Assembly (NCBI RefSeq): GCF_000166135.1
Contig: NC_014666.1
Coordinates: 4,650,001 to 4,714,000 of the forward strand
Direction of reading: 5' to 3'
Source: Pseudofrankia inefficax
GTDB lineage: Bacteria > Actinomycetota > Actinomycetes > Frankiales > Frankiaceae
Length of the DNA: 64,000 bases
The notes below the pieces were generated by a model, which ran no database searches, was not told where the DNA came from, and saw only the letters and a list, made by a program, of their open reading frames with translations. A program made the translations under genes and the position numbers. Positions within the stretch are counted from its first letter, which is position 1. The number at the start of each line of letters is the position of its first letter. This document shows, piece after piece, positions 235-64,000 of the stretch.

Positions 235-444
235 TTCGCGCGCTCCTAGACGGTGAGGCCCCGGTGGCCCGGCTCCGGGCTCGGGGCCGGTCGGGACTCG
301 GGGAGAACAGCAGGGTCAGCGGGACGGTGGATGCCGGCTCGACGGGGTGGCCTCGCCGAAAGCCACCCGATGGTCGGCCCAGCCGGGCCTTGCGGAAACC
401 TGCTTCTAGTCCCGCCCCCGACACGGTCCGCCCGGTTCCGGCGC

Positions 445-529
445 CCCCTTGATCGCCGTCTCGGCCCCGCGGTGGTCGTAACCAGGCCTGTTTCGTAGCC
501 ACCAGAAGGCGACAACAGCGATCAAGGGG
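445..529. repeat. Dispersed hairpin element, copy A
   Basis: Imperfect inverted repeat. The outer 12 bp (CCCCTTGATCGC) are perfectly repeated in inverse orientation at the right end, and a GGTGG/CCACC block pairs nearer the loop. Arms of about 35 bp flank a 15-20 nt loop. Arms and loop match copy B at 18277. It lies 3' of the esterase gene. Confidence 0.8.
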
Positions 530-622
530 CGGTCAGAGATTGACGGTCACGGCTTCTAGTCCGGCGTATCACTCCGCTCAGCCCGAAGGCAACCGTTCGA
601 GGGCCGGTACGACCACCCCATA

Positions 623-18276: not shown

Positions 18277-18357
18277 CCTTGATCGCCGTTTCGGCCCTCC
18301 GGTGGTCGTACGCGGGCCTGATTCGCAGCCACCAGAGGGCTGAAACGGGGATCAAGG
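18277..18357. repeat. Dispersed hairpin element, copy B (best paired)
   Basis: Left arm CCTTGATCGCCGTTTCGGCC... and right arm read in reverse pair over about 30 bp with only a few mismatches, closing a loop of about 20 nt. The loop itself resembles that of copy A. It lies between the stops of the convergent methyltransferase (28 bp away) and FAD oxidase (22 bp away) genes, where a bidirectional terminator would be expected. Confidence 0.88.
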
Positions 18358-18378
18358 CGACGGGGCCGGCCGTGGCGG

Positions 18379-19779
18379 TCACGGGTAGTGGCGCGGTTGG
18401 GGGGTGTTCGACGGTGGGAGGGCGGCGCCGGGGTTGAGGATGTTCAACGGGTCCAGGGCGTTCTTGACGCGCCAGCTCAGGTCCAGGACGTCGGGGCCGA
18501 GCTGGTCGGACAGCCAGGGCAGCTTGAGGCGCCCGACGCCGTGTTCACCGGTGATCGTGCCGTCGAGGCGCAGCGCGAGGGCCATGATCTCTCCGAACGC
18601 CAGGTCCGCGCGCCGCGCCATCTCCGCGTCGGTCGGGTCGACGACGATCAGCGGGTGGGTGTTGCCGTCACCCGCGTGCGCGACCATGGCGATCGTGACG
18701 TCACGAGCGGCCGCGATCGCCTCGACTCCGGCGACGAGCTCGGGGAGGCGAGGGAGCGCGACCCCTACGTCCTCGAGCAGGAGCGTGCCCAAGGGCTCCA
18801 GCGCGGTGATCACCGCGCGCCTGGCGGCGACGAAGGCCTCGCCCTCGTCCGGGTCGTCGGTCGCGACGACCTCGGTGGCTCCGGCCTTCTCGCAGGCCTC
18901 GACCATGACGCGCAGCTCGTCCGCGCCGGACTGATGCTGGGCGTCGGTCCGGGCGACGACCAGCGCGGCCGCGGACCGGTCCAGTCCCATCCGGAACAGG
19001 TCCTCGACCGCGTTGATCGAGGTCCGGTCCATGAGCTCCAGCATCGCGGGCCGCAGCTGGGCGGTGATCGCGAGGATGGCGGCGGTCGCGGCGGCCATCG
19101 TGGGGAAGGTCGCGACCAGGGTGCAGGTCGGCGGTTGCGCGGGAAGCAGCCGCAAGGTCGCCTCGGTGACGATCCCGAGGCTTCCCTCGCTGCCGACGAA
19201 CAGCTTCGTCAGCGACAGCCCGGCGACATCCTTCAGCCGGGCGCCGCCGAGCCGGACCGCCGCGCCATCGGCCAGGACGACCTCGAGGCCCAGGACGTAG
19301 TCCGTCGTCACCCCGTACTTCACGCAGCACAGACCACCGGCGTTCGTCGCCACGTTGCCGCCGATCGAGCAGATCTCGAACGACGACGGGTCGGGCGGGT
19401 ACCACAGCCCGTGCGTCGCCGCCGCGGCCTTGACCTCGACGTTCAGCGCCCCTGGCTGGGCTACCGCGACCCTCGTCACCGGGTCGACGTGAACGGACCG
19501 CATCCGCTCCAGCGACAGCACGATCCCACCGTCGACAGCGGTCGCCCCGCCGGACAGGCCGGTGCCGGCGCCGCGCGCGACCACCGGCACCCGGTGCCGC
19601 GCGGCCCAGCGGACCGCGGCCTGGACCTGCTCGGTCGTCTCGGCGCGCACCGCCGCGAGCGGGGTTCCCGCGTTCGGGTCGGCCGCCCGGTCGCGCCGGT
19701 ACTTCTCCAGCAGCTCCGGCTCGGTCGCGACGACCCCCGCCGGCAGCGCCCCCACCAGTTCCGCCAGCATCTCGTGCAC
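18379..19779 (-). CDS. GlcD-type FAD-binding oxidase/dehydrogenase
   Basis: 466-residue flavoprotein of the glycolate oxidase GlcD / D-lactate dehydrogenase type. The FAD_binding_4 (PCMH) domain covers about 30-210, with VVARGAGTGLSGGA, PDPSSFEICSIGGNVATNAGG and KLFVGSEGSLGIVTEATLRL. The C-terminal FAD-oxidase domain has MVAHAGDGNTHPLI, GTITGEHGVGRLK and DPLNILNPG, including the substrate- and metal-binding His residues. It oxidises a 2-hydroxy acid. GTG 19779 is chosen because GGAGG lies just upstream; ATG 19770 is the alternative. The other Glc subunits (GlcE/GlcF) are absent, so it works alone or with an unlinked acceptor. Confidence 0.92.
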   Translation of the reverse strand: MHEMLAELVGALPAGVVATEPELLEKYRRDRAADPNAGTPLAAVRAETTEQVQAAVRWAARHRVPVVARGAGTGLSGGATAVDGGIVLSLERMRSVHVDPVTRVAVAQPGALNVEVKAAAATHGLWYPPDPSSFEICSIGGNVATNAGGLCCVKYGVTTDYVLGLEVVLADGAAVRLGGARLKDVAGLSLTKLFVGSEGSLGIVTEATLRLLPAQPPTCTLVATFPTMAAATAAILAITAQLRPAMLELMDRTSINAVEDLFRMGLDRSAAALVVARTDAQHQSGADELRVMVEACEKAGATEVVATDDPDEGEAFVAARRAVITALEPLGTLLLEDVGVALPRLPELVAGVEAIAAARDVTIAMVAHAGDGNTHPLIVVDPTDAEMARRADLAFGEIMALALRLDGTITGEHGVGRLKLPWLSDQLGPDVLDLSWRVKNALDPLNILNPGAALPPSNTPQPRHYP

Positions 19780-40067: not shown

Positions 40068-40083
40068 TCTGACGGCCTACACC

Positions 40084-40112
40084 CATGATCGCCATCTCGG
40101 CCCGCTAGCGTG
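40084..40112. repeat. Half copy of the dispersed hairpin element (F)
   Basis: CATGATCGCCATCTCGGCCC matches the left arm of the element; the right arm is not recognisable. It lies 17 bp after the ureohydrolase stop, between it and the convergent benE gene. Confidence 0.5.
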
Positions 40113-48663: not shown

Positions 48664-48680
48664 CCGCCGCACCCTTCCAG

Positions 48681-48757
48681 CGATCGCCGTTTCGGCCCTC
48701 AACTGGTTACGTTCCAGCCCCTTCTACGACCACCCGAGGGCCGAACCACCGATCATC
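48681..48757. repeat. Dispersed hairpin element, copy C
   Basis: Left arm CGATCGCCGTTTCGGCCCTC and right arm, read in reverse, TGATCGGTGGTTCGGCCCTC pair over most of their length. Its loop matches copies A and B better when reverse-complemented, so this copy may be in the opposite orientation. It sits 18 bp after the MFS stop. Confidence 0.75.
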
Positions 48758-48902
48758 GAGCGGCCCGAGCGGCCGCAGTGGCGCTGGCAGCGCCGGAGGC
48801 GCGGGCGGTCTCGGTCGGCGGGGCGGCCGGTGGCGGGAAAGGTGGTGGGTGTGTCCGTTCCCGCCGTTGTGCCGGTGGGTGCCCGGCGGCGAGCATGGAG
48901 CC

Positions 48903-60971: not shown

Positions 60972-61153
60972 CGCTGCTCGCCAGGTTCGTCACGCGATCG
61001 GCGCGGGTGGTGCGGCAAGGCCCCGGGTGGGCCGGGCCCGCCCGAGCCGGTCGCCGGCGGTGGCGAACGTGGCTCGGAGAGATCCGCAGCCGGATTCTCG
61101 CGGCGTAATCCGACGCCGTCGTGTCGACCTCCCTCTCGCGCGGAGCTGTAGCC

Positions 61154-62623
61154 ATGTCCATTGCGCCACCGCAGACCTCGTCCGTCATCGTCAAGGACCG
61201 CCTGTTCGTCGGCGGAGAATGGGTCGCGCCGGCGGGAACCGGCACGATCGACGTCATCTCGCCGCACACGGAGCAGGTCATCGCGACCGTCGCCGACGCG
61301 AACGGCGCCGACATCGACCGGGCGGTCGCGGCCGCCCGCACGGCCTTCGACGACGGCCCGTGGCCGCGGACCTCCCCCGCCGAGCGGGCCGCGATGATCC
61401 GGGCGATCGGCGCGGCGATCCAGGCCCGCGCGCAGGAGTTCGCCGACACGGTGACCGCCGAGATGGGCGCGCCGTCGACCTTCGCCCTGTTCGGCAACAC
61501 CCTGGCCGCGGCCATGGTCCTGGACGGCTACGCCAGCGTCCTGGACACGTTCCCGTTCGAGGAGGAGCGCCCGGGCCTGCTCGCGCCGGTCACCGTCATC
61601 AAGGCCCCGGTCGGCGTCTGCGCGGGCATCGTCCCGTGGAACGTGCCGCTCTTCCTGATCGCGACGAAGATCGGCGCGAGCCTCGCCTCCGGCTCGACGA
61701 TGGTCATCAAGTCGGCGCCAGAGACCCCGCTGACCGGCTACCTGCTCGCCGAGGTGCTCCAGTCCGTCGGGCTCCCGCCCGGCGTCATCAACATCATCAC
61801 CTCCGGCCGGGAGAACAGCGAGCTGCTGGTCCGCCACCCGGGGGTCGACAAGGTCTCCTTCACCGGCAGCTCCGCGGTCGGCCGCCGGATCGGCGGGATC
61901 TGCGGCGAGCAGCTCAAGCGCTGCACCCTGGAGCTCGGGGGCAAGTCGGCGGCGATCATCCTCGACGACGCCGACGTCTCGACCGCGCTGCCCGCGCTGA
62001 TGCCGGCCGTGTTCATGAACACCGGCCAGGTCTGCGCCGCCCAGACCCGCGTCCTGGCCCCGCGTTCCCGCTATGCCGAGATCGTCGACGGACTGGCGGA
62101 CCTCGTGGCCGAGACCAGGGTCGGCGATCCCGCCAACCCGGAGACGGTCGTCGGGCCGCTCGTCGCCGAACGCCAGCGGGACCGGGTCGAGGGCTACATC
62201 CACGCCGGCGTCGACGAGGGCGCCAGGCTGATCCGCGGCGGCGGGCGGCCCGCGCTCGACCGGGGCTGGTACGTCGAGCCGACCCTGTTCGCCGACGTCG
62301 ACAACGGCATGCGGATCGCCCAGGAGGAGATCTTCGGCCCGGTCCTGTCGGTGATCCCGTACGACACCGAGGACGACGCCGTCCGCATCGCCAACGACTC
62401 GAACTACGGCCTGTCCGGCTCGGTGTGGACCGGCGACCCCGAGCACGGGGCCGCCGTCGGCAGGCGGGTCCGGACGGGCGTCATGGCGATCAACTCGGGC
62501 ACGGTCGTCGAGCTGAAGAACCCGTTCGGCGGGTTCAAGCAGTCCGGCATCGGCCGCGAGATGGGCGCCGAGGGCATCGCCGCCTACCTGGAGACGCAGA
62601 CCCTCGTCCACCCGCACGGCTAG
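61154..62623 (+). CDS. NAD(P)-dependent aldehyde dehydrogenase
   Basis: 489 residues, normal length. Landmarks: LFVGGEWVAPAGTGTIDVISPHTEQVIATVADA, PVGVCAGIVPWNVPLFLIATKIGASLASGSTMVIKSAPETPLTG (cofactor binding), SFTGSSAVGRRIGG, catalytic Glu in TLELGGKSA (about 260) and catalytic Cys in MNTGQVCAAQTR (about 294), then EEIFGPVLSVIPYDTEDDAVRIANDSNYGLSGSVWT. It oxidises an aldehyde to the acid. GGAG precedes ATG 61154. Follows the TetR gene by 258 bp on the same strand; whether the two are linked is unclear. Half of the hairpin element follows 38 bp after the stop. Confidence 0.94.
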   Translation: MSIAPPQTSSVIVKDRLFVGGEWVAPAGTGTIDVISPHTEQVIATVADANGADIDRAVAAARTAFDDGPWPRTSPAERAAMIRAIGAAIQARAQEFADTVTAEMGAPSTFALFGNTLAAAMVLDGYASVLDTFPFEEERPGLLAPVTVIKAPVGVCAGIVPWNVPLFLIATKIGASLASGSTMVIKSAPETPLTGYLLAEVLQSVGLPPGVINIITSGRENSELLVRHPGVDKVSFTGSSAVGRRIGGICGEQLKRCTLELGGKSAAIILDDADVSTALPALMPAVFMNTGQVCAAQTRVLAPRSRYAEIVDGLADLVAETRVGDPANPETVVGPLVAERQRDRVEGYIHAGVDEGARLIRGGGRPALDRGWYVEPTLFADVDNGMRIAQEEIFGPVLSVIPYDTEDDAVRIANDSNYGLSGSVWTGDPEHGAAVGRRVRTGVMAINSGTVVELKNPFGGFKQSGIGREMGAEGIAAYLETQTLVHPHG

Positions 62624-62660
62624 GGCCGCGTCTGCCGAGGTCCGCCTCGTCCCGGACCGG

Positions 62661-62690
62661 CAAGATCGCCGTTTCCGCGCTCGTGTGGCT
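62661..62690. repeat. Half copy of the dispersed hairpin element (D)
   Basis: AAGATCGCCGTTTCCGCGCTCGTGTGG matches the left arm; only a weak GCGG-based partner follows. 38 bp after the aldehyde dehydrogenase stop. Confidence 0.5.
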
Positions 62691-63508: not shown

Positions 63509-63684
63509 CCCGGCGCTCGTCTTTCGGCTCGACCGGCGCCGAAATCGGTGGCCGGCCGTTGTCCCGGCATTTCCGGCTCCGCGTCCCGCGTCCCTGGCGG
63601 CGGGCTTCCCGCAAACGGCTATTCCGCAGCTCGCCGGAGGTCCGCGCCGATCGGTTTCGGCGGGACGGTTCCGTCACCTTTCAG

Positions 63685-63759
63685 TGATCGCCGTCCTGGC
63701 CCTGAAGTGGTCGGGGTCGGCGACTTTCCGCGACCACTACCGGGCCAAACTCGCGATCA
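63685..63759. repeat. Dispersed hairpin element, copy E
   Basis: Left arm TGATCGCCGTCCTGGCCCTG and right arm, read in reverse, TGATCGCGAGTTTGGCCCGG, then GTGGTCG in both. The right end overlaps the stop codon of the gene at the right edge. 176 bp after the secreted-protein stop. Confidence 0.75.
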
Positions 63760-64000
63760 CATGCGCTGAACTTTTGCGGACCGGACCGCGCGGACGGAAG
63801 CTGTCGTGAAGGAAACCATCAGCTGACCGTCGGCGAGCTCCGGGCCGAAACCGGTTCTCGGGCCGCCGGAAAGCTCGGCGCGCAGGTCGGCGACAACGGC
63901 GTCCCGGTCGGCGGCGGGCGTCAGGATACGGTCGAGCGGAAGTGTTCCGCGCTGGCCCAGCGCGCTGGCCGCGAGCGGGCCGAGCCGCGAGCGCAACTGC
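63757..64000 (-). CDS. C-terminal part of an unidentified protein, runs off the right edge
   Basis: About 80 codons with strongly G/C-ending third positions, read to a TGA at 63757-63759. Visible: RSRLGPLAASALGQRGTLPLDRILTPAADRDAVVADLRAELSGG, then GPELADGQLMVSFTTASVRAVRSAKVQRM at the end. Codon bias argues for a real gene; the frame is open to the window end. I recognise no family. The stop lies in the tip of hairpin element copy E. Confidence 0.45.
   Translation of the reverse strand, partial: QLRSRLGPLAASALGQRGTLPLDRILTPAADRDAVVADLRAELSGGPRTGFGPELADGQLMVSFTTASVRAVRSAKVQRM

Follow-up and report, generated by a model that had tools for sequence, protein, structure and literature searches.

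Dispersed gene-end hairpins of Pseudofrankia inefficax appear to belong to a MITE-type element with a (C/G)TAG target

Introduction

The Correia elements, RUP and MITEAba12 are bacterial MITEs, and insertion sequences of the IS5 type have a 4-bp YTAR target. Palindromes of another kind, tagged GTAG or CGTC, are the REP/BIME repeats with their RAYT (PMC3733652), a paper in which a term search finds "Frankia" 0 times. The repeat considered here lies in Pseudofrankia inefficax, in a 64-kb stretch of DNA that we call the window (positions 4650001-4714000; the genome is one contig of 8,815,781 bp, and GC in the window is 73.9%). An initial annotation, made from the letters of the window, had noticed a family of hairpins and called it terminator-like or REP/MITE-type. 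Among titles and abstract openings of a mainly open-access literature (ISfinder not covered) we found no description of this repeat in Frankia, and a term search of a 2009 paper on Frankia insertion sequences (PMC2770080) returned "MITE" and "palindrom" 0 times. MITEs as a kind are well known; this family, with its target and its history, seems not to have been described before.

Results

The hairpins of the window are the middle of a larger element

Two related genomes are used for comparison throughout: G033, taken as Frankia sp. AgB1.9, whose blocks matching our genome (G000) are mostly 89-97% identical, and G031, ~90% identical in the region. AgB1.9 has sister strains, AgB1.8 and AgW1.1, at 99% ANI or more (PMC8542509). 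The four full hairpins reported by the initial annotation (445-529, 18277-18357, 48681-48757 and 63685-63759) were all recovered by a covariance model at E 2e-12 or better, all four being in its training alignment, and the arm word matched nine times in the window at up to three mismatches, against 0.16 expected from shuffles.

Copy A is the complete one. Its 146 bp of outer arms and core occupy 410..555 on the plus strand (arms 20.3 and 13.7 bits), between two CTAG words at 406..409 and 556..559 that form a target-site duplication; the core hairpin, 81 bp (the 75-bp palindrome plus 3 bp per side), spans 447..527 (+) and scores 60.2 bits, and the neighbouring genes are 193 and 212 bp away. Copy B, with its core at 18277..18357 (+) between convergent genes, keeps a right outer-arm remnant at 18361-18386 (12.1 bits) and no recognisable left arm; the orthologous spacer of G033 also has its counterpart. 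The core of copy C (48678..48758, +) begins 14 bp 3' of a stop codon, with outer arms that are unrecognisable; it is present in G033 and was not found in the G031 spacer. At copy D (63682..63762, +) the predicted stop of the right-hand gene is the TGA within the TGATC word of the core (minus strand). The same TGA ends three predicted genes, at the window copy 63682-63762 and at G000 4885020 and 4960825, from which it follows that copies can supply a new stop codon.

The two half copies of the initial annotation fared differently. The one at 62661-62690 was confirmed and extended: half copy F, with a left outer arm (20.1 bits) and left half-core (30.6 bits), occupies 62624..62690 (+), its right half unrecognisable, and its left end lies exactly at the TAG stop of the gene 61121-62623, within a CTAG target site at 62620..62623 (+). 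The other, placed at 40084-40112, is not secure: possible half copy E (40083..40112, +) is a weak left half-core alone, 15.9 bits, without an outer arm.

The hairpin, first taken for the element, is indeed its repeated core, and the real element extends well beyond it. In the flanks of 207 collected copies we found a common outer arm, CTAGTGCCGC..CCG.CAAGGTyCGCCCGt, which gives imperfect terminal inverted repeats of ~27 bp (TGCCGC..CCG.CAAGGTyCGCCCG) outside the 75-bp palindrome. This motif, which was refined on the same 414 flank ends, lies within 25 bp of the core at 113 of them, against 0.2% of 4000 random ends, and at 89 of these 113 armed ends it stands 1-2 or 10-11 bp outside the core. 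Two-armed rows measure 145-147 bp in 40 of 59 cases, some rows being low-scoring or overlapping, and a spacer of 8-9 nt distinguishes one arm from the other. Folding the majority consensus of 27 copies gave one hairpin, at a computed -117 kcal/mol. About three quarters of the flank ends have no recognisable outer arm, which suggests that a good part of the family is old, truncated or divergent beyond the core.

At 2346665-2346724 stands a 60-bp derivative that has kept the two ends and lacks the core. Far from any core we found 6 of 24 outer-arm matches in our own genome (control 3), 9 of 11 in G031 (control 0) and 4 of 15 on three contigs of G033 (control 0); inspection of these far matches revealed no recognisable longer element, and those of G031 are possibly core-less remnants or chance coding matches. 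In a composite variant (L228; flanks of six copies) the outer arm is separated from the core by an extra ~70-bp module (GTGATCGTGAAG..CGACGCGCGGCG..).

The family is large in two genomes

Across 800 kb of the host chromosome, a position matrix built on 32 copies (cut-off 15 bits) detected 41 full cores, and its reversed-sequence control gave none; three further copies, one base longer and with no control of their own, bring the total to 44. The hairpins are neither confined to the window nor chance GC hairpins, the two ways in which the initial annotation could have failed: besides these 44 copies, the arm word has 455 matches genome-wide (at up to two mismatches), against 2 for the reversed word. 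For the whole genome we estimate ~310-485 copies, ~310 by the arm-word ratio (64 matches per 44 copies) and ~485 by length alone.

Arm-word counts across 35 genomes of the family were 455 in our own genome, 521 in G033 and 5-66 in the six remaining genus members; outside the genus, 27 genomes queried with the arm word alone gave 1-15, somewhat above the 0-4 of the reversed word. The covariance model found matches at E <=0.001 in all eight genus genomes, from 4 to at least 150 (both strands counted). An exact 20-bp word retrieved 69 stretches from a species-genome collection (own genome excluded), 66 of them in Frankia sp. AgB1.9, one in F. nepalensis CN7 and two in unrelated organisms, neither supported by the core model. 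Viral contigs gave 0 matches, and a search of plasmid records with copy A gave none. High copy number is thus seen in only two genomes of one Frankia/Pseudofrankia genus, and the expansion appears to belong to the lineage of our genome and AgB1.9.

Presence varies between close relatives. In G031 we counted 5 copies over 600 kb, where our genome has 44 over 800 kb, and of 18 own copies with a syntenic G031 spacer one has a copy there by score; own copy 4733200 has a decayed remnant in the G031 spacer, as judged by eye. Three of 24 testable own copies were not found in G033. Conversely, on three G033 contigs (C207, C229, C165; 23 of 28 copies placeable) 7 of 23 testable copies were not found in our genome, one of them leaving a half copy. 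The AgB1.9 loci from the 20-bp word search were chosen via a word of the core, and presence counts that use them favour presence; part of the spacer comparisons were too diverged to read. Among the spacers of G000, G033 and G031, similarity often ends near stop codons: intergenic turnover is fast, with coding DNA ~90-95% identical. One orthologous spacer holds two copies in G033 (C207:14599 and 14813) and one different-looking copy in G000 (4644594).

Insertion duplicates a 4-bp target, at several sites a TAG stop codon

The 4-mers abutting the ends of the 59 two-armed rows (n=118) were CTAG in 38 cases, followed by CTGG (10), CCGG (8) and CCAG (7), which are one or two transitions from CTAG. 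Identical 4-mers stood on both sides in 9 of the 59 rows: six CTAG, one CTAT and two others. Among 413 ends, CTAG was concentrated at fixed distances from the core, 32 bp (n=12) and 39-42 bp (n=26), where ~0.3-0.6 per position would be expected in spacers. The CTAT/CTAT flanks argue for a 4-bp rather than a TA duplication; together with a GTAG/GTTG pair (below) they disfavour duplication of TA only, in the style of IS630.

Syntenic counterparts in another genome were available for 14 of 36 complete-type copies tested. Three of the 14 are clean empty sites; the rest are occupied in both genomes or unreadable, except for C165:25835, where the left end alone is supported, and L201, which has the look of an empty site in G031 with a junction off by a few bases. 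The three clean comparisons, all filled in AgB1.9 and empty in our genome, are C165:96175 (filled GTAG..GTTG, empty GTAG, flanks overlapping by exactly 4), L185:6027 (filled CTAG..TTAG, empty CTAG) and L158:2000 (filled CTAG..CTGG, empty CTAG). In four cases, these three and C165:25835, the target coincides with the TAG that closes an open frame. In the empty genome these frames have 346 codons at C165:96175, 78 at L185 (counted inside a 3-kb locus), 160 at L158 and 243 at C165:25835, against 458, 505, 160 and 236 in filled G033. Three of the four frames fall within the 800-kb stretch, and all three are predicted gene ends there. At L185 a change in the gene's copy of the duplication has turned its stop into TAA. 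These three AgB1.9 comparisons show insertion with a 4-bp target duplication (GTAG, CTAG and CTAG) at TAG stop codons.

Copies are concentrated at gene ends

By our own codon-usage gene finder, which is not a curated annotation, the midpoints of all 44 copies in the 800 kb are intergenic, 23 between convergent, 18 between tandem and 3 between divergent genes. The early remarks that several copies sit between convergent genes and that all are intergenic are borne out; the remark that every copy lies 3' of a gene is mostly right.

The target word itself is unevenly placed: of 205 CTAG sites in the 800 kb, 70 are at predicted stop codons, 105 intergenic and 30 inside genes, and 22 lie within 80 bp of a copy. 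Of the 51 gene ends that adjoin copies, 12 read CTAG; of the 638 gene ends elsewhere, 60 do (Fisher p 0.004). Mapping against stop codons, which the initial annotation had proposed, placed 23 of 146 armed ends precisely at a stop, as judged from the reading frame (19 TAG, 4 TAA), half copy F among them; NTAG ends are stops in 19 of 52 cases, against 71 of 365 CTAG words away from copies (both strands counted). Free CTAG sites predict 8.9 convergent and 11.7 divergent copies, against 23 (p 2e-6) and 3 observed, and spacer length predicts 3.8 convergent ones; 17 of the 18 tandem copies are nearer the upstream stop. CTAG targeting accounts for part of the gene-end bias, and the convergent excess exceeds its prediction. 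We attribute this remainder to the probable loss of insertions that damaged a promoter or a coding region; alternatively, the machinery may prefer such places, or copies may have been exapted.

Terminator, REP and binding-site readings

The hairpins might instead be bidirectional transcription terminators or mRNA 3'-end stabilisers that selection keeps at gene ends. They are long and GC-rich, and their placement (the convergent excess over both expectations, the tandem copies near upstream stops) is what such a role would produce. Between orthologues, moreover, the stem diverges less (11.1%) than the outer positions (16.1%) or the loop (16.7%; 18 pairs, from 19 of 21 shared sites with one dropped at >25% divergence), a difference that may be ascertainment because copies were found via the core. 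Covariation over 32 copies scores 0.150, where shuffles give 0.126 and 1 of 500 reaches the real value; paired cells make up 81.3% against 79.7% (0 of 500 shuffles). Both excesses can arise among related sequences without structure. Stem conservation and this covariation could reflect some selection on the core. Against this reading, a T-run of at least four follows the hairpin at only 1 of 88 sides, with a background of 1.0%, and a classical intrinsic terminator is not supported, for lack of this T-tract. Over 201 cores an arm pairs with its own partner at 74.8% and with the arm of another copy at 74.2% (sd 0.35), and orthologue changes that keep pairing number 32 against 37.1 expected (17 pairs). 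A forced 35-pair helix over the 32 copies has 13 pairs with changes on both sides, against 12.9 in shuffles, the RNAalifold consensus has such changes in 2 of 14 pairs, and Rfam gave three sub-threshold matches in the window, none at a copy. Taken together, these tests give a conserved RNA fold weak support or none. At G033 C207:53069, by eye, a separate hairpin shared with G000 stands beside the inserted copy, and selection at gene ends leaves the 4-bp duplications unaccounted for. We therefore think it improbable that the family as a whole has this function; an exapted terminator role at some sites is possible.

A REP/BIME element moved by a RAYT (Y1) transposase would equally be palindromic, intergenic and of high copy number. 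The search for a TnpA-REP-type transposase that the initial annotation had suggested came out negative: PF01797 has 0 matches in our genome and is found in one of eight genus genomes, in a search whose control gave matches in 5 of 14 genomes. Terminal inverted repeats and a 4-bp duplication, both present here, are not known as REP features. We reject the REP/RAYT identity for want of a Y1 transposase in this genome and leave it a minimal chance. The sole Y1 match of the genus is L110 (G034:C610), in the member with the fewest arm-word matches. A third reading, in which the hairpin is a dyad bound by a regulatory or chromosome-organising protein, would suit a conserved, symmetric, dispersed core of near-fixed length. 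It sits badly with arms beyond the core and target duplications, and with a presence that varies between close relatives, as in the five copies of the ~90%-identical G031; we regard it as very unlikely.

Search for the transposase

PF13546 (DDE_5) had 0 matches in our genome and PF01609 (DDE_Tnp_1) one, in a gene with an in-frame TAG stop. The latter belongs to an IS5-like element of ~950 bp (L243:1453-2414; G000:C1, around 1616981-1617403) with CTAG on both sides, whose ends show no resemblance to the MITE ends by eye. A 20-bp end word gave 60 matches in our genome at up to two mismatches, against 29 in the reversed control, and inspection of the list found no IS-like pairs of ends 0.8-3 kb apart among the 60; this search would miss a partner that shares fewer bases. 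The partner transposon has possibly been lost, is too diverged at its ends, or resides elsewhere, and its assignment to the IS5 family is a guess.

Discussion

We interpret the family as a MITE-type, non-autonomous DNA transposon, mobilized by a trans-acting transposase with 4-bp (C/G)TAG duplication and surviving at gene ends, and put the probability of this reading at roughly 90%. Copies are short, non-coding and dispersed, and the terminal inverted repeats, the target duplication and the pairs of filled and empty sites point to such a transposon; against it count the number of clean empty sites, three only, the search for an autonomous partner that found none, the many flank ends in which no arm is recognisable, and the outer-arm matches of G031 far from any core. 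Of the three labels first offered, MITE has thus survived, REP has fallen with the absence of PF01797, and the classical terminator with the lack of T-runs.

A mechanism may be suggested. A complete copy, usually 145-147 bp with two ~27-bp terminal repeats around a 75-bp near-palindromic core, would be recognized by a transposase supplied in trans, which would cut a short site, preferring CTAG and also using GTAG, and the element would insert with duplication of the 4-bp target. CTAG is rare and mostly non-coding, and where the target contains the TAG of a gene the duplication would leave a stop on the gene side, so that new copies survive at gene ends without breaking genes. Selection against insertions into promoters or coding DNA may then concentrate the copies between convergent genes. 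A bolder version, which we offer tentatively and would not bet on, is that the element in effect targets the TAG stop, with the (C/G)TAG duplication rebuilding the gene-side stop, a safe haven that would have allowed several hundred copies to build up, and that the core has perhaps since come to serve as a boundary, in both directions, where convergent genes meet.

What began as hairpins without a name can now be described as a mobile element whose ends and target are known, and its bias to gene ends gains a simple, partial reason: outside stop codons and spacers the target word is scarce. In cluster 4 Frankia, whose spacers evolve quickly, the element might serve as a marker of genome turnover. 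For GC-rich genomes in general, a hairpin at a gene end need not be a terminator.

Compared with known systems, the element most resembles the Correia elements, RUP and MITEAba12, which are likewise short and gene-free, with terminal inverted repeats, a short duplication and many dispersed copies; it differs from them in its own ends and core, in its 4-bp (C/G)TAG target, several times a stop codon, in a consensus that can form one hairpin, and in that no partner insertion sequence was found in the genome. ERIC and RU are similar as imperfect intergenic palindromes of ~100-170 bp, but their sequence and host group are different, and the present element has shown target duplication and empty sites. 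With the REP/BIME-RAYT system it shares a high-copy intergenic palindrome, whereas the present genome is without a Y1 transposase, the element has terminal inverted repeats and a 4-bp duplication, and its TAG word is the duplicated target. Finally, a 4-bp CTAG-like duplication recalls the IS5-type insertion sequences, and the one PF01609 element of this genome is likewise flanked by CTAG, but its terminal repeats are, by eye, unlike those described here.
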